Assembly (NCBI RefSeq): GCF_009711475.1
Contig: NZ_SMMD01000901.1
Span: 1-15,183 of the forward strand
Direction: 5' to 3'
Source: Fulvivirga aurantia
GTDB taxonomy: Bacteria > Bacteroidota > Bacteroidia > Cytophagales > Cyclobacteriaceae
DNA length: 15,183 nucleotides
Shown in pieces: positions 2,973-10,095 of this stretch. The position numbers and the translations under genes are program-made. The notes under the pieces are model-generated. The model searched no databases and was not told the origin of the DNA. It saw nothing but the letters and a program-made list of their open reading frames with translations. How positions within the stretch are numbered: position 1 is the first letter of the stretch; each line of letters starts with the position of its first letter.

Positions 2973-3004
2973 TTGCTTATTAAAAATAAATTGACATACC
3001 TTTG
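2973..3004 (+). promoter_or_regulatory. Bacteroidota-type promoter of the arginine operon
   Basis: TACCTTTG at 2997-3004 is a full match to the Bacteroidota -7 element TAnnTTTG. A TTG at 2973-2975 lies 21 bp upstream, in the range expected for the -33 element. The expected transcription start is a few bases after 3004, about 3008-3011, immediately before the ATG of the short leader ORF. An AT-rich dyad (TTATT at 2977-2981, AATAA at 2985-2989) sits between the two elements, and a second dyad (GCAAG 2958-2962, CTTGC 2972-2976) overlaps the TTG. Either could be an operator, but neither matches a site I can name. Confidence 0.75.
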
Positions 3005-3012
3005 CCCTAACA

Positions 3013-3123
3013 ATGGCAGAACAACTCACAAATATCCTAATCAATAAGCAAGTCTCTCTTGCTCAGGGTATTGTTTTGTCTTTATCTACTTCACGCAATA
3101 GGAACCTACGCCTTAGGGCGTAA
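3013..3123 (+). CDS. Putative arginine leader peptide (36 aa) of the arg operon
   Basis: A 36-codon ORF from ATG 3013 to TAA 3121. Its start lies only a few bases after the expected transcription start, so the message would be nearly leaderless. The peptide begins MAEQLTNILI and ends SRNRNLRLRA: Arg is residue 28, 30, 33 and 35, that is, four of the last nine residues. Their codons are CGC, AGG, CGC and AGG, whereas argF' and argB downstream use AGA for 12 of 13 arginines by my count. A short ORF with clustered codons for the end product, sitting between the promoter and the first structural gene and overlapping competing hairpins, is the classic layout of a ribosome-mediated attenuator. Stalling at these codons when charged tRNA-Arg is scarce would change the fold of the downstream leader RNA. 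No homologue is recalled. The evidence is positional and compositional, and no family match was made. Confidence 0.62.
   Translation: MAEQLTNILINKQVSLAQGIVLSLSTSRNRNLRLRA
3047..3063 (+). promoter_or_regulatory. Leader RNA hairpin inside the early leader-peptide codons
   Basis: AGCAAG (3047-3052) and CTTGCT (3058-3063) form a perfect 6-bp stem around the 5-nt loop TCTCT. It lies within the first half of the leader ORF and could act as a pause hairpin that keeps RNA polymerase in step with the translating ribosome, as in proteobacterial attenuators. That role is inferred from position only. Confidence 0.4.
3107..3122 (+). promoter_or_regulatory. Leader hairpin over the Arg codons and stop codon
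   Basis: TACGCC (3107-3112) pairs perfectly with GGCGTA (3117-3122) around the 4-nt loop TTAG. The hairpin covers the last leader codons (Leu32 to Ala36) and the first two bases of the stop codon, so a translating ribosome would open it. Its 3' arm (3118-3122) can instead pair with 3141-3145, so this stem and the alternative fold exclude each other. Confidence 0.5.
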
Positions 3124-3133
3124 TACACTCTTT

Positions 3134-3152
3134 GCAGAGCTACGTGCTCTGC
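3134..3152 (+). promoter_or_regulatory. Candidate attenuator hairpin after the leader ORF
   Basis: GCAGAGC (3134-3140) pairs perfectly with GCTCTGC (3146-3152) around the loop TACGT, giving a compact GC-rich 7-bp stem 10 nt after the leader stop codon. A competing fold pairs 3118-3122 with 3141-3145 (one G-U) and 3128-3131 (CTCT) with 3136-3139 (AGAG), which would destroy this hairpin. That is the expected terminator/antiterminator relation. The weak point is that no T-tract follows directly; the first TTTT is at 3164-3167. If it terminates, it would do so imperfectly or with help, or control may act on translation instead. Confidence 0.45.
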
Positions 3153-3214
3153 TATCCTCATAGTTTTATCTATTTATCATCTCTTTCTGAAAAGAAAGTA
3201 AATCCTATTTTCTC

Positions 3215-3868
3215 GTGAAATTTACAATTACTGTGGCTGATAATAGCCATCTGGAATATGCTGAATCTATCTGTCAAATGATGGCAGATGCGGCACAAAT
3301 AAGGGGTACGGGTATAGCTCAAAGACAACCTGAGTACATCAAACAAAAAATCGAGCAAGGTAAGGCGATTATTGCCCTACACAAAGATAAACTTATTGGT
3401 TTTTGCTATATCGAAAGCTGGCAAGATCAGAAGTATGTAGCTAATTCAGGCCTTATTGTTCACCCAGATTATAGAAATGAAGGTCTGGCCAAAGTCATCA
3501 AAAAAGCGACCTTCGACCTTTCTAAAAAGATGTTTCCAAACGCACTGCTTTTTGGTATCACTACCAGTATGGCGGTGATGAAGATCAATTCTGACCTTGG
3601 TTACAGACCCGTCACTTTTTCTGAACTCACTACAGACGAAACTTTCTGGAAGGGTTGCCAGAGTTGCAACAACTATGACATACTTATGAGAACAAGCAAA
3701 AGTATGTGTCTTTGCACAGGTATGATCTGCGATCTAAGCAAAGAAACCAACAGGCAGTTACCAAAAAAGCTTGCCTGGACAAAGTTTAAAGAGTTTTTCA
3801 AGGAAAGACTCAAAGTAAAATCAAAGCAATTGCTCAACCTCACAAAAATCACTTCAGATGTCAAATAA
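3215..3868 (+). CDS. GNAT acyltransferase, candidate acylglutamate synthase
   Basis: A 217-residue GNAT-fold acyltransferase and the first structural gene of the arginine operon. The acyl-CoA binding motif A is visible as VHPDYRNEGLA (residues 82-92, with the R-x-x-G-x-A pyrophosphate loop at 87-92). After the GNAT core comes a Cys-rich segment with CxxC (Cys148, Cys151) and CxC (Cys165, Cys167) plus Cys172, then a basic Lys-rich tail. No classical argA, argJ or kinase-fused synthase is present. Its lead position suggests that it makes the N-acylglutamate (acetyl- or succinyl-) that starts the pathway; this is inferred from context, and some other acetyltransferase role is possible. The start is GTG: the frame is open back to a TGA at 3188 without any ATG, and the first internal Met is at residue 22, inside the fold. 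Its end overlaps argG by 11 nt, implying translational coupling. Confidence 0.78.
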   Translation: MKFTITVADNSHLEYAESICQMMADAAQIRGTGIAQRQPEYIKQKIEQGKAIIALHKDKLIGFCYIESWQDQKYVANSGLIVHPDYRNEGLAKVIKKATFDLSKKMFPNALLFGITTSMAVMKINSDLGYRPVTFSELTTDETFWKGCQSCNNYDILMRTSKSMCLCTGMICDLSKETNRQLPKKLAWTKFKEFFKERLKVKSKQLLNLTKITSDVK

Positions 3869-5057
3869 GAAAGTACTACTCGCTTACAGTGGTGGTCTGG
3901 ATACCTCCTACTGCATTAAATATTTAAAACACGAACTACAACTAGATGTATACACAGCCATAGTCAACACTGGTGGATTTGACACACTGAGCCTGAAACA
4001 AATCGAAGACAAAGCCTACCAGTTGGGGGCTAGCTCACACATTGTGCTTGAGCAAACTGATGCTTTTTATCAAGACATACTCAGATTTTTGATTTACGGC
4101 AATGTGTTAAAAAACGGCACCTATCCCCTTTCAGTGAGTGCAGAGAGAGTGCATCAGGCTAAAGCATTGGCCAAATATGCGTTGTCTATTGATGCTGATT
4201 ATATCGCACATGGTAGCACGGGGGCTGGCAATGATCAAGTGAGGTTTGACAGTATTTTTCAACTGGTAGCACCTAATCTAGAGATTCTCACACCTATAAG
4301 AGACCAGCAGTTAAGCAGAAAGCAGGAACTCGATTTTTTGGCTGCTCATGGTGTTGCTATAAAGTGGGAAGAGGCTCAGTATTCGATCAATAAAGGCCTT
4401 TGGGGCACAAGTGTTGGCGGAGCTGAGACACTCACTTCAAACACTCCTCTTCCTGAAAAAGCTTACCCCAGTCAGCTTACAGCAAAAGAGCCACAACAAA
4501 TTACGCTGTCATTTACAAATGGTGAGTTATCGGCAGTAAACGGAAAAACGGCTAACCCTACCCAACTGATCAAACAGATTGAAAAAATTGCATCAGCGTA
4601 CGCGATAGGTAGAGACATTCATGTTGGAGACACTATAATTGGTATAAAAGGCAGAGTAGGGTTTGAAGCAGCCGCTGCCAAAGTGATTATAGCTGCTCAT
4701 CAGGTTTTAGAAAAGCATACGCTTTCTAAATGGCAATTACATTGGAAAGAACAGTTGGCTGGTTGGTATGGCATGTTCATTCACGAGTCACAATATTTTG
4801 AGCCAGTGATGAGAAATATAGAAACGTTTTTAGAGGCCACACAGAAGAATGTTTCTGGTGAAGTGTACATCAGGCTTTTTCCCTACAGTTTTGAGATTGA
4901 AGGCATTACTTCACCTCATGACCTTATGACATCGGCATTTGGTATCTATGGAGAAGCCAATGACCAATGGAGCGGAGAAGATGTTAAAGGATTCACGAAA
5001 ATCTTTAATAACAGCACGCAAATTTATAACGCAGTAAACAGTGTGAGCTATGATTAA
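3858..5057 (+). CDS. argG: Argininosuccinate synthase
   Basis: A 399-residue argininosuccinate synthase, which condenses citrulline and aspartate using ATP to give argininosuccinate, the penultimate step of arginine synthesis in the cytoplasm. The N-type ATP pyrophosphatase loop AYSGGLDTS is at residues 9-17, and the conserved AHGSTGAGNDQVRFD segment at about 117-131 contributes to nucleotide and substrate binding. The length is normal for the family. The gene starts inside the end of the GNAT gene (11-nt overlap), and its own end overlaps argC by 8 nt, so it belongs to one transcript. Placing argG second, before the early-pathway genes, is a Bacteroidota-style order. No missing key residue was seen. 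Confidence 0.97.
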   Translation: MSNKKVLLAYSGGLDTSYCIKYLKHELQLDVYTAIVNTGGFDTLSLKQIEDKAYQLGASSHIVLEQTDAFYQDILRFLIYGNVLKNGTYPLSVSAERVHQAKALAKYALSIDADYIAHGSTGAGNDQVRFDSIFQLVAPNLEILTPIRDQQLSRKQELDFLAAHGVAIKWEEAQYSINKGLWGTSVGGAETLTSNTPLPEKAYPSQLTAKEPQQITLSFTNGELSAVNGKTANPTQLIKQIEKIASAYAIGRDIHVGDTIIGIKGRVGFEAAAAKVIIAAHQVLEKHTLSKWQLHWKEQLAGWYGMFIHESQYFEPVMRNIETFLEATQKNVSGEVYIRLFPYSFEIEGITSPHDLMTSAFGIYGEANDQWSGEDVKGFTKIFNNSTQIYNAVNSVSYD

Positions 5058-6027
5058 AGTTGGCATTATAGGAGGTAGTGGCTATGTAGCCGGAGAATTG
5101 ATCAGATGTTTACTGCATCACCCTGAGGCCGAGATCGACTTTATTTACAGTCACTCAAAGGCTGACCTTGCAATTGAGGAAGTGCATGGTGACCTTTTTA
5201 CTATAAAAAAGATTGCTTTTAGCCAATCAATAAATTACGCTGTCGATGTAGTATTTCTATGTATGGGTCATGGTCACTCAAGATCATTTCTAGAGGAAAA
5301 TGAATTTAGTTCTTCAACAAGGATTATTGATTTAAGCAGTGATTTCAGACATAACGCTTCCAGAGATTTAGGAAACAAACAGTTTTACTATGGTTTGCTA
5401 CCGCTTAAGAAAGAGACAATCAAAAACAAAAAATACATAGCAAATCCGGGTTGTTTTGCCACTGCCATACAACTGGCATTACTACCGGCTGCGAATGCGC
5501 ATCTTCTGCCACAAGAAGTACATATTCATGGCATTACTGGATCAACCGGAGCCGGAGGAAGTTTAAGTGAGACAGGGCATTTCAGTTGGAGAAACAACAA
5601 TATTTCTATTTACAAACCCTTTCAACATCAACACTTACAGGAAATTTCAGAGAGTTTAAAAAGCTTGCAGCCAGAGTTTGAAGGTAGCCTCAACTTTATA
5701 CCTCACAGAGGAAACTTTACGCGTGGGATTTTGGCGAGTGTTTATTTCAATTCTTCGATTGATGAGGAAGATTTAGTTAATCTATACAGCACATATTATG
5801 AGTCAGACCCATATACTTCTGTAACCACTCAGCAAGTTCATCTCAAGCAGGTAGTAAATACCAATCACTGTTTGCTTCAAGTTCAAAAAATCGATGGAAA
5901 GGTGTTGATAACAAGTGTTATAGACAATCTGCTAAAGGGTGCTGCCGGGCAGGCCATCCAAAATATGAACATACTATTTAATCTGGACGAAACCAGCGGC
6001 CTGCAATTAAAGGCGAGCTATTTCTAA
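5050..6027 (+). CDS. argC: N-acyl-gamma-glutamyl-phosphate reductase
   Basis: A 325-residue NADPH-dependent reductase that converts N-acyl-glutamyl-5-phosphate to the semialdehyde, the third step of the pathway. The N-terminal Rossmann motif GIIGGSGYVAGEL is at residues 5-17. The catalytic Cys135 sits in NPGCFATA. The conserved segment PHRGNFTRG, with His219 as the likely catalytic partner, is at residues 218-226. GSTGAGG at 165-170 is the conserved substrate-side glycine loop. The length fits the family's short form. The start overlaps the argG end by 8 nt, and argF' follows after 12 nt. In many related operons argD would come next, but here it does not. Whether the acyl group is acetyl or succinyl cannot be read from this protein. 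Confidence 0.96.
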   Translation: MIKVGIIGGSGYVAGELIRCLLHHPEAEIDFIYSHSKADLAIEEVHGDLFTIKKIAFSQSINYAVDVVFLCMGHGHSRSFLEENEFSSSTRIIDLSSDFRHNASRDLGNKQFYYGLLPLKKETIKNKKYIANPGCFATAIQLALLPAANAHLLPQEVHIHGITGSTGAGGSLSETGHFSWRNNNISIYKPFQHQHLQEISESLKSLQPEFEGSLNFIPHRGNFTRGILASVYFNSSIDEEDLVNLYSTYYESDPYTSVTTQQVHLKQVVNTNHCLLQVQKIDGKVLITSVIDNLLKGAAGQAIQNMNILFNLDETSGLQLKASYF

Positions 6028-6039
6028 AAACTAAGAACA

Positions 6040-6981
6040 ATGAATTTTACAAGTATAAATGATATATCATCTCCTGTTCAACTGCTTGAACTGGCTAAAC
6101 AGATAAAACTTAAGCCGTTTGATTACAGGGAGTTTGGCCAAAATAAAACATTAGGCCTGCTATTTTTTAACCCTAGCCTGAGAACCAGACTTAGCACACA
6201 AAAAGCTGCCAATAATCTAGGCATGGATGTGATTGTAATGAATGTTGGTCAGGATGGCTGGCAACTTGAGATGGATGAAGGGGTCGTGATGAATGGCAGT
6301 AAACAGGAGCACATCAAAGATGCTGTTGCCGTGCTCTCACAATACTGTGACATAATCGGTGTCAGAACTTTTGCTTCACTCAATGATAGAAAGGCTGATT
6401 ATGAGGAGTTGGTACTCAAGCAATTTTTAAAGTATACCCATGTACCCATTATTTCACTTGAGAGTGCCACGCTGCATCCACTACAGTCGTTGGCCGATTG
6501 GTTGACCATTGAAGAACATAAGGTGGCTCATAAGCCTAAGGTTGTACTTACCTGGGCGCCACATGTGAAACCACTCCCACAAGCCGTGGCTAACTCTTTT
6601 GTTGAGTGGATGAAGCTTGCCGAGGTTGATTTGACCATTACCAATCCGATAGGTTTTGATTTGGCACCTCAATTCAGCAAAGATGTAAAAGTCGAACACA
6701 ATCAAGATATGGCGCTTGCACAGGCCGATTTTGTCTATGCTAAAAACTGGTCTTCGTATCAGGATTATGGCACAATAGGTGGTGAAATGACTGATTGGCA
6801 AATCACACCAGAGAAAATGAGCCTTACTAACAATGCCAAATTTATGCATTGCTTACCTGTAAGAAGAAATGTAGTGGTTTCTGATGAAGTGATAGATGGA
6901 CAAAACTCACTCGTTTACGAGCAAGCCAATAACAGAACATACGCTGCACAAGCTGTGCTATTAAACCTCTTACAATTATGA
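6040..6981 (+). CDS. argF': N-acyl-L-ornithine carbamoyltransferase
   Basis: A 313-residue transcarbamylase of the acetyl-/succinyl-ornithine branch (AOTCase/SOTCase), not classical OTCase. It transfers carbamoyl from carbamoyl phosphate to N-acyl-ornithine to give N-acyl-citrulline. Visible signatures are the carbamoyl-phosphate loop NPSLRTR (44-50), HPLQ (146-149), the branch-typical proline loop WAPHVKPLPQAV (172-183) and HCLPVRR (270-276). Overall it closely resembles the Bacteroides fragilis succinylornithine enzyme as I remember it. The residue that sets the acyl preference in characterised enzymes (Pro90 in B. fragilis, Glu92 in Xanthomonas) aligns with Gln89 here, in GSKQEHI, so the natural substrate is uncertain. 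The stop codon overlaps the argB start in an ATGA junction, indicating coupled translation. Confidence 0.94.
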   Translation: MNFTSINDISSPVQLLELAKQIKLKPFDYREFGQNKTLGLLFFNPSLRTRLSTQKAANNLGMDVIVMNVGQDGWQLEMDEGVVMNGSKQEHIKDAVAVLSQYCDIIGVRTFASLNDRKADYEELVLKQFLKYTHVPIISLESATLHPLQSLADWLTIEEHKVAHKPKVVLTWAPHVKPLPQAVANSFVEWMKLAEVDLTITNPIGFDLAPQFSKDVKVEHNQDMALAQADFVYAKNWSSYQDYGTIGGEMTDWQITPEKMSLTNNAKFMHCLPVRRNVVVSDEVIDGQNSLVYEQANNRTYAAQAVLLNLLQL

Positions 6982-7751
6982 AGTTACAAGTGATAAAAAT
7001 TGGAGGAGAGGTAATTGACGATGCACAAATGCTTCACAGATTTTTAGAAGATTTTAGTGCGCTCAAAAACCCAAAAATACTTGTGCATGGAGGTGGTAAG
7101 GTGGCGAGCAACCTCAGTAAACAACTTGGCCTTACACCAAACTTCGTAAACGGCAGAAGAATAACCCAATCAGCCGATCTTGAGGTGGTAGTTATGGCTT
7201 ATGCAGGCAAACTCAACAAATCACTTGTGAGCAAACTGCAAAAGATCGGTTGTAACGCAATTGGTATATCAGGTGCAGACGGAGATAGTGTAAGAACTGC
7301 AAAAAGAGTGCAAAGCCCGGTGGATTATGGTCTTGTCGGTGATATCACAAAAGTAAATGGCCAGTTAATCAACCAATTGATAAAGGCCAACCTTACACCG
7401 GTATTTTGTGCTATTACACATGACGGGAATGGTCAATTGCTGAATACCAATGCCGATACCATGGCTGCAGCGATCGCGAGCACTATGAACATGTTTTTTG
7501 AAACTGAGCTTGTTTACTGTTTCGAGAAACAAGGAGTGCTCTCAGATATAAAGCAACCTGATTCTGTAATCCAGGAGATTTCTCAAAAAAAATACACAGC
7601 GCTTTTAAAGGATAAACAGATCTATGAAGGCATGCTTCCCAAGCTGGAAAACTGCTTTAAGGCACTTAAAAATGGAGTAAAATCTGTAAAAATAGGCAGT
7701 TATAAAATGCTGACTGAGGATACAAACAATCACACCAAACTTGTATTATGA
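6978..7751 (+). CDS. argB: N-acylglutamate kinase
   Basis: A 257-residue amino-acid kinase that phosphorylates N-acetyl- or N-succinyl-glutamate, the second pathway step. Motifs in order: KIGG (Lys7 to Gly10, phosphate binding), HGGGK (37-41), NGRRIT (58-63, with the substrate-binding arginine region), and NTNADTMAAAIAS further on, with the conserved Asn and Asp of the active site. The protein begins directly at the first beta strand, with no room for the N-terminal helix found in the hexameric, arginine-inhibited kinases. It matches the length of the arginine-insensitive E. coli enzyme. This suggests little feedback on this step (inference). It overlaps argF' by 4 nt upstream and argE by 4 nt downstream when the first ATG of argE is used. 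Confidence 0.95.
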   Translation: MKLQVIKIGGEVIDDAQMLHRFLEDFSALKNPKILVHGGGKVASNLSKQLGLTPNFVNGRRITQSADLEVVVMAYAGKLNKSLVSKLQKIGCNAIGISGADGDSVRTAKRVQSPVDYGLVGDITKVNGQLINQLIKANLTPVFCAITHDGNGQLLNTNADTMAAAIASTMNMFFETELVYCFEKQGVLSDIKQPDSVIQEISQKKYTALLKDKQIYEGMLPKLENCFKALKNGVKSVKIGSYKMLTEDTNNHTKLVL

Positions 7752-8812
7752 TGGCTGAGGTAATAGAAAACTCCTGTATTGGTTTGCTCAAAAAATTGAT
7801 TGAGACCCCTTCATTTTCTAAAGAAGAAAATAAGACTGCTGACATCATTCAAAGCTTTTTATCGGCAAATCAAATCAACGCTAAAAGAGCATTAAATAAC
7901 GTTTGGGCTGTAAATAAGTATTTTGACCCTGAGAAACCAAGTATTTTACTTAACTCTCATCACGATACGGTGAAGCCAAATAGTAGCTACATAAGAGACC
8001 CATTTGAGCCCAAGGTAGAAGATGGCCGATTATATGGGTTAGGAAGCAATGATGCGGGAGGGTGTTTGGTATCACTATTGGCTACTTTCATGCAGTTTTA
8101 CGAGCAAGAGCACCTGAAATATAATCTCATTTTTTCGGCAACGGCCGAAGAAGAAATATCAGGATCGAATGGTATAAGCTATTTATACCCAATGCTGCCC
8201 TCGATTGATTTTGCCATCGTTGGAGAACCTACGCAAATGAAAATGGCCATTGCAGAAAAAGGTCTTATGGTGATCAATGGATGTGCACATGGCAAAGCAG
8301 GCCATGCCGCACACGGAAATACAACAAATGCTATTTATGAAGCCCTAAAAGACATCGAGTGGATCAGTAATTATGAATTTGCAAAATCCTCCACCTTTTT
8401 AGGCCCGGTAAAAATGAGCGTCACTCAAGTTACGGCAGGATCGCAACATAATGTAATTCCAGACCGATGTGCATTTGTAATTGATGTACGTACCAATGAA
8501 TACTATAACAATGAGGAGGTATTTAAAATCATAGAGCAACACACGCATAGTCAATTAAAAGCTCGCTCCTATAGACTTAACTCATCATCAATCGCTGTGG
8601 ACCACCCGGCAGTGCTTGCAGGAAAACAATTAGGCCTTGAGCTTTATGGCTCCCCTACACTATCTGACCAGGCACTTTTAACTTGCCCCTCAATAAAAAT
8701 AGGGCCGGGTATCTCAACCAACTCACATATAGCAGATGAGTTTATTGAGATTAAAGCGATTTATAAAGGAATTGAAATTTACACCAGCTTACTAAACACA
8801 ATAATAAAATAG
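7748..8812 (+). CDS. argE: M20 family deacylase, N-acylcitrulline/acylornithine deacylase
   Basis: A 354-residue M20 zinc amidohydrolase. Because carbamoylation here happens on acyl-ornithine, the expected reaction is removal of the acyl group from N-acyl-citrulline to give citrulline for ArgG. Metal-site motifs are present: SHHDT (His71, Asp73), GSNDAGG (bridging Asp102), TAEEE (catalytic and ligand Glu within 134-136), VGEP, and a late His in NSHIADEF. The central dimerisation region contains GKAGHAAHG. Two adjacent ATG codons at 7748 and 7751 are possible starts; the first overlaps the argB stop by 4 nt, and the second directly follows it. ArgH begins 2 nt after the stop. The family includes dipeptidases and DapE, so the substrate assignment rests mainly on the operon. 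Confidence 0.92.
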   Translation: MMAEVIENSCIGLLKKLIETPSFSKEENKTADIIQSFLSANQINAKRALNNVWAVNKYFDPEKPSILLNSHHDTVKPNSSYIRDPFEPKVEDGRLYGLGSNDAGGCLVSLLATFMQFYEQEHLKYNLIFSATAEEEISGSNGISYLYPMLPSIDFAIVGEPTQMKMAIAEKGLMVINGCAHGKAGHAAHGNTTNAIYEALKDIEWISNYEFAKSSTFLGPVKMSVTQVTAGSQHNVIPDRCAFVIDVRTNEYYNNEEVFKIIEQHTHSQLKARSYRLNSSSIAVDHPAVLAGKQLGLELYGSPTLSDQALLTCPSIKIGPGISTNSHIADEFIEIKAIYKGIEIYTSLLNTIIK

Positions 8813-8814
8813 CC

Positions 8815-10095
8815 ATGAAACTCTGGGACAAAGGATATAAAACAGCTCACATCGTTGAGAGCTTTACAGTAGGAAAAGACAGACTTTTAGATCAAAAATT
8901 AGCTAAATATGACGTACAAGGAAATATAGCTCATGCTAAAATGCTGGCTCAAATTGACATTTTAAGCACTCAGGAGTTAAATCAAATCCTGCATGCATTG
9001 GATGAAATAGAAGGAGACATAGCAAGTGGCACTTTTCAAATTGAAGAGCAGTTTGAGGATATACACAGCAAAATCGAACACGAACTCACTGAAAAAATAG
9101 GTGAAGCAGGTAAAAAAATCCATACGGCAAGGTCTAGAAATGACCAGGTGCTAGTCGATCTTCATTTGTATTGTAAAGATGAGATCGACCAAATTAAAAG
9201 GCTGATAAATAAGCTATTCCATACATTGATCAATTTGAGCGACAAGTACAAAAATGTGCTACTTCCCGGCTACACACATATGCAGGTGGCCATGCCTTCA
9301 TCTTTTGGTTTGTGGTTTAGTGCGTATGCCGAATGCCTCGTTGATGACATCACCCTCTTGAATGCAGCTTACAAGATCGCTGACCAAAACCCTCTTGGTT
9401 CTGCTGCCGGCTATGGTACCTCCTTCCCTATCGACAGACAAATGACAACCGATTTATTGGGTTTTGATTCATTGAAATATAACGTTGTAGCAGCACAAAT
9501 GAGCAGAGGGAGGTTAGAGACATCAGTAGCTTATGGTTTGGCCTCTACCTCTTCCACATTATCTAAACTGGCCTCTGATGTGTGTTTGTACATGTCTCAG
9601 AACTTTAATTTCATTGCTTTTCCCAAAGAGCTAACAACCGGATCAAGCATAATGCCTCACAAGCAAAATCCGGATGTTTTTGAATTGGTAAGAGCGAAAT
9701 GTAACGTCATTCAGAACCTGCCAGGGCAGCTGATGTCAATCACAAGCAATCTCACGAGTGGTTATCATAGAGATTTACAGGTATTAAAAGAGTTGCTTAT
9801 CAACAATATAGATTCAATTAAGGAGTGCCTGGAGGTCAGCACATTTATGTTAGAAAACATCATTGTAAATCAAGACATAATCAATCAGCCAATATACGAT
9901 CACTTATTTACTGTAGAAACTGTGAATCAGTATGTTATGGATGGATTGACATTTAGAGAAGCCTATAAAAAAGTCGGCAAAGAAGTTTTGCAAGGAGAAT
10001 ATAAGCCTGAAAAAAAAGTGAAGCATACGCATGAAGGCAGCATCGGTAATCTATGTTTGACTGAAATCAAAGAGAAATTTGAGAAAGCGTATTGA
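8815..10095 (+). CDS. argH: Argininosuccinate lyase
   Basis: A 426-residue member of the fumarase/aspartase superfamily, which splits argininosuccinate into arginine and fumarate, the last step. Signatures: HTARSRNDQ (103-111), PGYTHMQVAMP (151-161), and the superfamily signature GSSIMPHKQNPD (276-287), whose serines include the catalytic residue on a flexible loop. Where most bacteria have THLQRAQP, this protein has THMQVAMP followed by SSFGLW, the variant I associate with Bacteroidota ArgH. It is somewhat shorter than the 455-470 residues common elsewhere, without obvious loss of a motif. It is the last arg gene. No clear terminator was found in the 112 bases that follow, so readthrough into the next gene is possible. 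Confidence 0.97.
   Translation: MKLWDKGYKTAHIVESFTVGKDRLLDQKLAKYDVQGNIAHAKMLAQIDILSTQELNQILHALDEIEGDIASGTFQIEEQFEDIHSKIEHELTEKIGEAGKKIHTARSRNDQVLVDLHLYCKDEIDQIKRLINKLFHTLINLSDKYKNVLLPGYTHMQVAMPSSFGLWFSAYAECLVDDITLLNAAYKIADQNPLGSAAGYGTSFPIDRQMTTDLLGFDSLKYNVVAAQMSRGRLETSVAYGLASTSSTLSKLASDVCLYMSQNFNFIAFPKELTTGSSIMPHKQNPDVFELVRAKCNVIQNLPGQLMSITSNLTSGYHRDLQVLKELLINNIDSIKECLEVSTFMLENIIVNQDIINQPIYDHLFTVETVNQYVMDGLTFREAYKKVGKEVLQGEYKPEKKVKHTHEGSIGNLCLTEIKEKFEKAY

Follow-up and report, generated by a model that had tools for sequence, protein, structure and literature searches.

The open reading frame (ORF) at 3013–3123, a 36-codon leader in front of an arginine biosynthesis operon, is in all likelihood the sensor of a ribosome-mediated arginine attenuator with an unusual, possibly Rho-dependent, output. 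This reading rests on sequence comparison, from which the leader, its Arg codons, two tandem hairpins (P2 and P3), the rarity of terminators and the lack of a detectable ArgR all emerge. We regard leader-peptide attenuation by Arg codons as well supported, because relatives keep the position, frame and Arg-rich end of the ORF, because each of the six Arg codons occurs, and because searches for ArgR in the order came back empty. The window, that is the whole stretch of DNA analysed (15,183 nucleotides), contains the following features.

2973–3004, + strand: promoter-like site of the Bacteroidota type (TTG, 21 nt, TACCTTTG), by pattern match
3013–3123, + strand: leader ORF of 36 codons, ATG to TAA, MAEQLTNILINKQVSLAQGIVLSLSTSRNRNLRLRA; position and Arg-rich end kept in relatives
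3030–3037, + strand: AAATATCC, a degenerate ACATATC-like element (the window has no exact ACATA)
3094–3117, + strand: Arg codons CGC (3094), AGG (3100), CGC (3109) and AGG (3115), codons 28, 30, 33 and 35
3107–3122, + strand: hairpin P2 (TACGCC-TTAG-GGCGTA), covering the last Arg codons and part of the stop codon; from folding and the swap test
3134–3152, + strand: hairpin P3 (GCAGAGC-TACGT-GCTCTGC), whose loop is almost invariant and whose stem covaries; from folding and covariation
3153–3208, + strand: G-poor, pyrimidine-rich spacer, a candidate Rho-loading stretch judged from composition
3215–3868, + strand: gene for a GNAT acetyltransferase, heading the operon and starting with GTG
3858–10095, + strand: argG, argC, argF', argB, an argE/dapE-type deacylase and argH

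A strong intrinsic terminator at 2892–2929, 3' of the upstream gene (ORF 4–2871, which we take to be peptidase-like), splits that gene from the arg operon. Within the operon, argF' is of the N-acetylornithine carbamoyltransferase type and the argE/dapE-type deacylase belongs to M20. The initial annotation had described a 36-codon ORF between a promoter and the first of seven arginine-pathway genes, ending in SRNRNLRLRA with Arg at positions 28, 30, 33 and 35. The ORF, its Arg residues and its placement are all borne out; the gene count holds for six pathway enzymes, joined by the leading GNAT with a putative role. The leader ATG lies 8 nt past the promoter-like site, so the transcript is expected to start near the beginning of the leader ORF; a TAnnTTTG consensus for Bacteroidota-type promoters is given in passages of PMC9723704.

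Scanning of named genome records with the GNAT protein yielded 34 related loci, including representatives of Flavobacteriales, Crocinitomicaceae, Cytophagales, Saprospiraceae, Chitinophagales, Marivirga, Mesonia, Fodinibius and Rhodothermales. Upstream of GNAT in 32 of these loci (all except L032 and L035) is a short ORF with at least three Arg among its last 12 residues, and these ORFs begin some 150–242 nt upstream of the gene. We also sampled 194 genomes of the window's order, 125 of which contain GNAT, and used the upstream DNA of 124; G110, at a contig edge, and second GNAT copies in G000, G024, G040 and G151 were left aside. The full set comprises 158 GNAT upstream regions, and leader counts within it depend on the threshold applied; for the swap test, the codon counts and the P3-based test below, kinship among loci was reduced by identity cut-offs and not by a tree. 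Short ORFs whose last 12 residues include at least four Arg occur at 59 of the 158 loci (37%), compared with 28 of 1580 dinucleotide shuffles (1.8%) and 15 of 158 opposite strands, and we consider these ORFs a secure class. Lowering the threshold to at least three raises the count to 108 loci (68%), part of which are probably chance ORFs because 11.5% of shuffles and 22.8% of opposite strands (36/158) reach it too. Among residues, Arg stands out in this test, the second being Leu with 16% at the threshold of four. A further 69 loci (29 plus 40), an uneven draw from a phylum sample, gave 46 with at least three Arg in an upstream ORF end, chance ORFs included; L320 and L321, described below, are among the 69. 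That the ORF is more than chance is upheld by the contrast with shuffles, and the alignment check suggested in the initial annotation came out as anticipated, in that position, frame and Arg-rich end are kept and the rest drifts. Homologous regions lacking a short Arg-rich ORF had been named as counter-evidence; this objection fails for the family as a whole, yet 50 of the 158 loci stay below three Arg.

As a second test, loci were picked by an automatic rule for hairpin P3 alone, ignoring ORFs (58 of 158, 40 of them non-redundant). At 31 of these 40 loci an ATG-initiated ORF of 12–75 codons ends 8–26 nt before the P3 loop, and in every one of the 31 at least two Arg occur in the last 12 residues; when TTG and GTG starts are counted, an ORF is found at 38 loci, 37 of them with at least two Arg. 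The Arg share of the last 12 residues is 29.0% in frame, against 4.6% and 3.8% in the other frames, and Lys accounts for 0.5%. A hand-edited list (8 loci added and 2 removed), which was also used for the swap test, the A3 covariation analysis and the codon counts, gave the same picture, with an ORF at 37 of 45 loci and Arg at 29.7% in frame and 5.4% and 3.4% out of frame. This frame dependence bears on the idea that the conserved entity is a non-coding, riboswitch-like RNA in which the ORF is incidental. Such an RNA could account for the conserved hairpins P2 and P3 and for the ACATA element described below, a feature at the nucleotide level, but not readily for an Arg excess that is restricted to one frame and draws on all six codons. 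Moreover, no Rfam covariance model, those for Bacteroid-trp, T-box and others included, reached E ≤ 1 in the window's leader or in those of four relatives (L002, L080, L105 and L026), and we consider this explanation highly improbable.

The leader ends differ from group to group (RLRA, RPNRV, RFTFRV, RSPRTA, RIPRRR, RSARTQ), which shows that it is Arg richness, and not a peptide sequence, that is conserved between groups. In Jiulongibacter/Emticicia-type loci (L026, L027, L028 and L031) the leader ends in ..RSxRTQ, and these loci share a second element, GGATACAGCGTCTCC ... CGACGATGA, which by eye could pair over the GNAT start codon. An arrest peptide, in which the nascent chain would sense free arginine in the ribosomal tunnel without codon starvation, has a precedent in SpeFL, which senses ornithine, and C-termini within groups are indeed alike (RIPRRR, SPLRRxRFTFRV, TPFRFRSPRT). 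Between groups, however, length, spacing and neighbouring residues vary and Arg richness alone is shared, which is not the conserved stalling peptide that such a mechanism calls for; the likeness within groups can be explained by P2 pairing, and an arrest peptide is therefore unlikely. It is extremely improbable that the ORF encodes a small functional protein: although it has 36 codons and its own start near the promoter, there is no sequence common to the groups beyond Arg richness, and an NCBIfam search of its product gave no match. Codon choice within the leaders is distinctive. Those linked to P3 (hand-edited list) use AGG 66 times, CGC 25, AGA 17, CGA 11, CGG 7 and CGT 6, so that all six Arg codons are in use; AGG makes up 39% of Arg codons in the 108 leaders as opposed to 5% in the GNAT genes of the same loci. 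The coding sequences of the window favour AGA (77 of 150 Arg codons), which its leader does not contain. AGG may be the sensitive Arg codon in arg leaders; synonymous codon choice is argued, in passages of PMC1183508, to set the sensitivity of attenuation.

Near the 5' end of the leaders we observed a short ACATA element, present in 56 of 108 arg leaders, where shuffles would give 3.5, at 12–27 nt past the A of the start codon (15–18 nt in 52 of the 56). It occurs in all three frames (23, 18 and 15 cases), and its spacing is kept relative to the start codon (sd 2.4) more than relative to the promoter box (sd 5.7 in the 20 loci that have one). The element is also found in candidate leaders for other amino acids, namely L168 (His), L197 (Trp), L164, L226 and L253. 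Pairing of ACATA with the P3 loop was considered and is disfavoured: both the His and the Trp leader of the window's own genome contain the element, and the hisG upstream region of that genome shows no P3-like hairpin. In addition, a hairpin interrupted by an internal loop is predicted for the 5' half of the leader ORF in the window (3015–3080) and at L002, L004, L005, L010, L012, L017 and L020.

The predicted folding energy of positions 3010–3230 is −60.2 kcal/mol, whereas shuffles average −34.4 (z −6.9), and each of the 200 shuffles folds less well. In an alignment-free swap test on 39 loci, P2 scored a z of −5.1 (unselected) and P3 a z of −10.7 (biased by selection). The best z among all other segment pairs was −2.95, leaving P2 and P3 as the only ones that stand out, and no mutually exclusive pairing of the terminator/antiterminator type was found among leader segments in this test. 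The initial annotation had referred to competing hairpins; two tandem hairpins are indeed conserved, and that description is only partly right. Among upstream hairpins of at least four pairs the commonest pentaloop by far is TACGT, at 36 of 158 loci, followed by TTTTT at 17, and loop variants (TATGT, CATGT, TACGC and others) raise P3 to 58 loci by rule or 62 by a looser rule. The loop begins 9–25 nt past the stop codon of the assigned leader. Outer pairs 5, 6 and 7 of the stem, which the rule does not demand, are paired in 80%, 93% and 90% of the 40 automatic non-redundant loci, compared with shuffled means of 44%, 39% and 57%, and involve up to six pair types. In alignment A3 (29 sequences), 86 stem cells are double-changed, against 24.6 in shuffles and at most 36 in slid versions; 98% of its P3 stem cells are paired, a figure inflated because A3 was hand-chosen and leaves out loci with short or shifted stems. 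Alignment A1 omits L124, L159 and L048.

P3 is not a universal readout element, since it was found by rule at 58 of 158 loci and with a UACGU-type loop at none of the 69 further phylum-level loci; groups without P3 of this type must use another readout. In another group, represented by six loci (L030, L300, L312, L313, L315 and L317), the arg leader is followed by a hairpin whose 11-nt loop, UAGGUGAGUCC, is likewise fixed and takes the place of UACGU. We also considered whether P3 is a general element of amino-acid leaders. A P3 model (R1, 29 sequences, window included) run on the window's own genome recovered the arg copy at E 0.009, followed by matches at E 4.0 and 4.6, with none other below E 3.9, and a P3-like hairpin was absent from all 29 hisG upstream regions scanned, out of a set of 30, so this possibility was rejected. 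A combined P2 and P3 model (R2) gave 14 matches at E ≤ 0.1 on 296 phylum genomes, of which only the own copy is convincing and the remainder look like chance; as 18 candidates were scored per genome, this search says little on the absence of P2 and P3 elsewhere. TadA editing sites contain a TACG motif. Because UACGU is the commonest loop, mimicry of the tRNA-Arg(ACG) anticodon loop or a TadA site was considered for P3, and is disfavoured as CAUGU, UAUGU, UCCGU, UUCGU and UGCGU loops occur too.

The arrangement of an Arg-codon ORF and rightly placed tandem hairpins would suit a classic transcription attenuator, in which stalling of the ribosome tips the balance from an intrinsic terminator at P3 towards an antiterminator, and genomes of the same order do show leader-plus-terminator layouts for trp, ilv and his. 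The initial annotation had predicted altered readthrough past 3152, which implies a terminator ending there. This part of its proposal did not hold: P3 of the window (3134–3152) is followed by TATCCTCATAG, with no T-run, and a terminator scan of the + strand 3' of the window's leader found none. Terminator-like sites follow only 7 of 108 arg leaders and occur in the last 200 nt of 8 of the 69 further arg loci, so that an intrinsic terminator between leader and first gene, at P3 or elsewhere, was rejected for most arg loci as for the window. A few of the terminator-like sites could be real, for example those of L003 and L004, where P2 precedes a T-rich run. Furthermore, a plain terminator would not be expected to keep a fixed loop, and taken together these results make a classic attenuator very unlikely here. 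Ribosome-mediated arginine attenuation, as originally suggested, is hence supported by comparison as regards the sensor, but not as regards the classic terminator readout.

With the same detector and in the same order, a terminator follows 9 of 14 Trp-cluster ORFs before trpE and 4 of 5 Ile/Leu/Val-rich ORFs before ilvD, as opposed to the 7 in 108 for arg, which sets the arg leader apart from those of trp and ilv. The regions scanned were not identical: for arg they began 40 nt ahead of the leader stop and ended at the estimated start of GNAT, and for trp, ilv and his they reached from the leader stop to the first residue of the Pfam domain. Before hisG a terminator follows only 1 of 8 candidate His ORFs, MQLYSATYNHHHHHHVNSASMHGRFML, which belongs to the window's own genome and has six His; the remaining seven candidates are for the most part probably spurious. 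The hisG, trpE and ilvD sets comprise at most 30 loci each, with leader candidates picked by codon-cluster thresholds, several of them chance-like, and the numbers of such loci without a leader are uninformative because in many cases the gene may lie further down its operon. The own-genome His leader (L168, G000:C696, at −365 of the HisG domain) has six consecutive His codons and an intrinsic terminator before hisG; it also matches the Rfam family Phe_leader, though below threshold (E 0.0048, 37.1 bits against a cut-off of 55). A second short ORF of the same genome, MRNNNIHSAWWWHFLK (L197, G000:C280, near a contig end), contains WWW and is a probable Trp leader. The six-His and WWW leaders suggest that the window's genome uses leader peptides.

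Control at the level of translation was considered as well. If the Arg-codon region paired with the start region of GNAT, a stalled ribosome could free the latter, and in the window 3091–3104 does pair with 3201–3217 around the GTG start, with similar pairing at L020, L023 and L025. Across 108 loci, however, true partners pair no better than swapped ones (mean z −0.03), and 5.6% of loci fall below p 0.05 as compared with 9.3% for a control region. Sequestration of the GNAT start by Arg codons is striking in the window and three Fodinibius-type loci, but it is not conserved and was rejected as the general mechanism; translation attenuation of this kind is improbable.

The preferred reading thus remains a leader-peptide sensor read out by other means than a terminator, and the composition of the spacer is suggestive of one such means. 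Between 32 and 72 nt past the arg leader stop, G makes up 9.8% and C 23%, and the combination of at most 12.5% G and at least 20% C is found in 52% of 102 arg windows as against 16% of 171 controls before other amino-acid genes. This fits Rho loading, without proving it. We infer ribosome stalling, the direction of regulation and the output step as follows. Translation of the leader ORF would begin near the transcript's 5' end. A shortage of charged tRNA-Arg would stall the ribosome in the Arg codons at 3094–3117 and leave P3 free to fold, and an early stall in these codons would leave P2 free also. With P3 free, RNA polymerase and ribosomes would continue into GNAT-argG and the genes that follow. 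With ample arginine, the ribosome would reach the stop codon that overlaps P2, placing its front edge at the base of P3; P3 would be disrupted or later remodelled, and the G-poor, pyrimidine-rich spacer could become exposed to Rho or to decay.

In the window's group, the readout probably lies with P3 and its UACGU-type loop. Rho-dependent termination is our tentative choice for the output, at a little less than an even chance; mRNA decay or translation control in its place is a serious possibility that we would put at about one in three. Whichever the output, a loop-binding factor might read P3, a suggestion that we consider plausible without expecting it to hold. In a wider and equally tentative formulation, ArgR-less Bacteroidota and neighbours of the Fodinibius type may share a terminator-less attenuation in which the leader stands where two genomes have argR, and a group-specific hairpin after the stop codon (with a UACGU-type or UAGGUGAGUCC loop) is read by Rho, RNA polymerase or an unknown factor.

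Bacterial arginine biosynthesis is usually taught as the story of a repressor, ArgR. Searches for the ArgR C-terminal domain found it in none of the 194 genomes of the order, the own genome included, whereas 8 of 14 control genomes, including Bacteroides ihuae, gave a match. Of 296 genomes sampled across the phylum, 109 have ArgR and 124 have a GNAT of the window's type (E ≤ 1e-20), and only 3 have both, where 45.7 would be expected (Fisher p 6e-30, shared descent being ignored). One of the three has a weak ArgR match with an internal stop. In the other two (L320 and L321) a complete argR lies directly before GNAT, in the leader's place, and their upstream regions contain no ORF end with three or more Arg. 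GNAT matches in G077, G118 and G143 cross one TAG and one TAA, and one lies within a 630-aa open frame. It appears, then, that part of the Bacteroidota controls arginine biosynthesis by ribosome sensing, beside ArgR-bearing genomes of the same phylum, and the two genomes with argR at the head of the same operon make a swap from repressor to attenuator directly testable. The leader and its hairpins would represent a new family of cis-regulatory RNA in a phylum with few known RNA regulators, and with a fixed-loop hairpin in place of the expected terminator they pose the question of its reader.

Leader-peptide transcription attenuators are known for the trp, his and ilv/leu operons of proteobacteria. 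The arg leader resembles them in being a short ORF just past the promoter, with a cluster of end-product codons, before a pathway operon, and its position between promoter and first gene together with the conserved in-frame excess of end-product codons places it among leader-peptide attenuators in the broad sense. It differs in that it senses arginine, in that intrinsic terminators are rare and, in the window's group, in its nearly fixed-loop hairpin. Arginine attenuators are reportedly not listed by Vitreschak et al. 2004. Our search of the open-access literature, outside which most subscription papers lie, found no Bacteroidota arginine biosynthesis operon described as having an arginine leader. 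Bacteroid-trp RNA, which is linked to Trp leaders, is likewise a candidate cis-regulatory RNA of Bacteroidota before amino-acid genes, and it has no match in the leader of the window or of the four relatives searched; it is Rfam RF01692, tabulated in part of PMC2864571. For Flavobacterium, of the same phylum, leader-peptide attenuation before amino-acid operons has been suggested in print, the F. psychrophilum candidates being presented in passages of PMC9723704 that give 'strong clues' for attenuation and name no arginine leader; leader-like sORFs are mentioned for B. thetaiotaomicron in a passage of PMC7366714. In Staphylococcus aureus, excerpts of PMC13009471 describe rbfL, a leader peptide whose (rare) Arg codons sense arginine limitation, as proposed here; unlike the window's leader, rbfL overlaps the rbf ribosome-binding site, represses a biofilm regulator and has two Arg codons. 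The Salmonella speF/orf34 leader, as set out in sections of PMC6386406, likewise has Arg codons in a leader ORF that control another gene and a hairpin 3' of the stop codon, with an output through Rho and RNA stability of the kind proposed for the window's leader. There the gene is a polyamine gene and the peptide a conserved one (DUF2618) of gamma-proteobacteria, whereas the window has an arginine biosynthesis operon and no conserved peptide. Relative to known attenuators, the sensor described here is of a known kind and it is the readout that is unusual.
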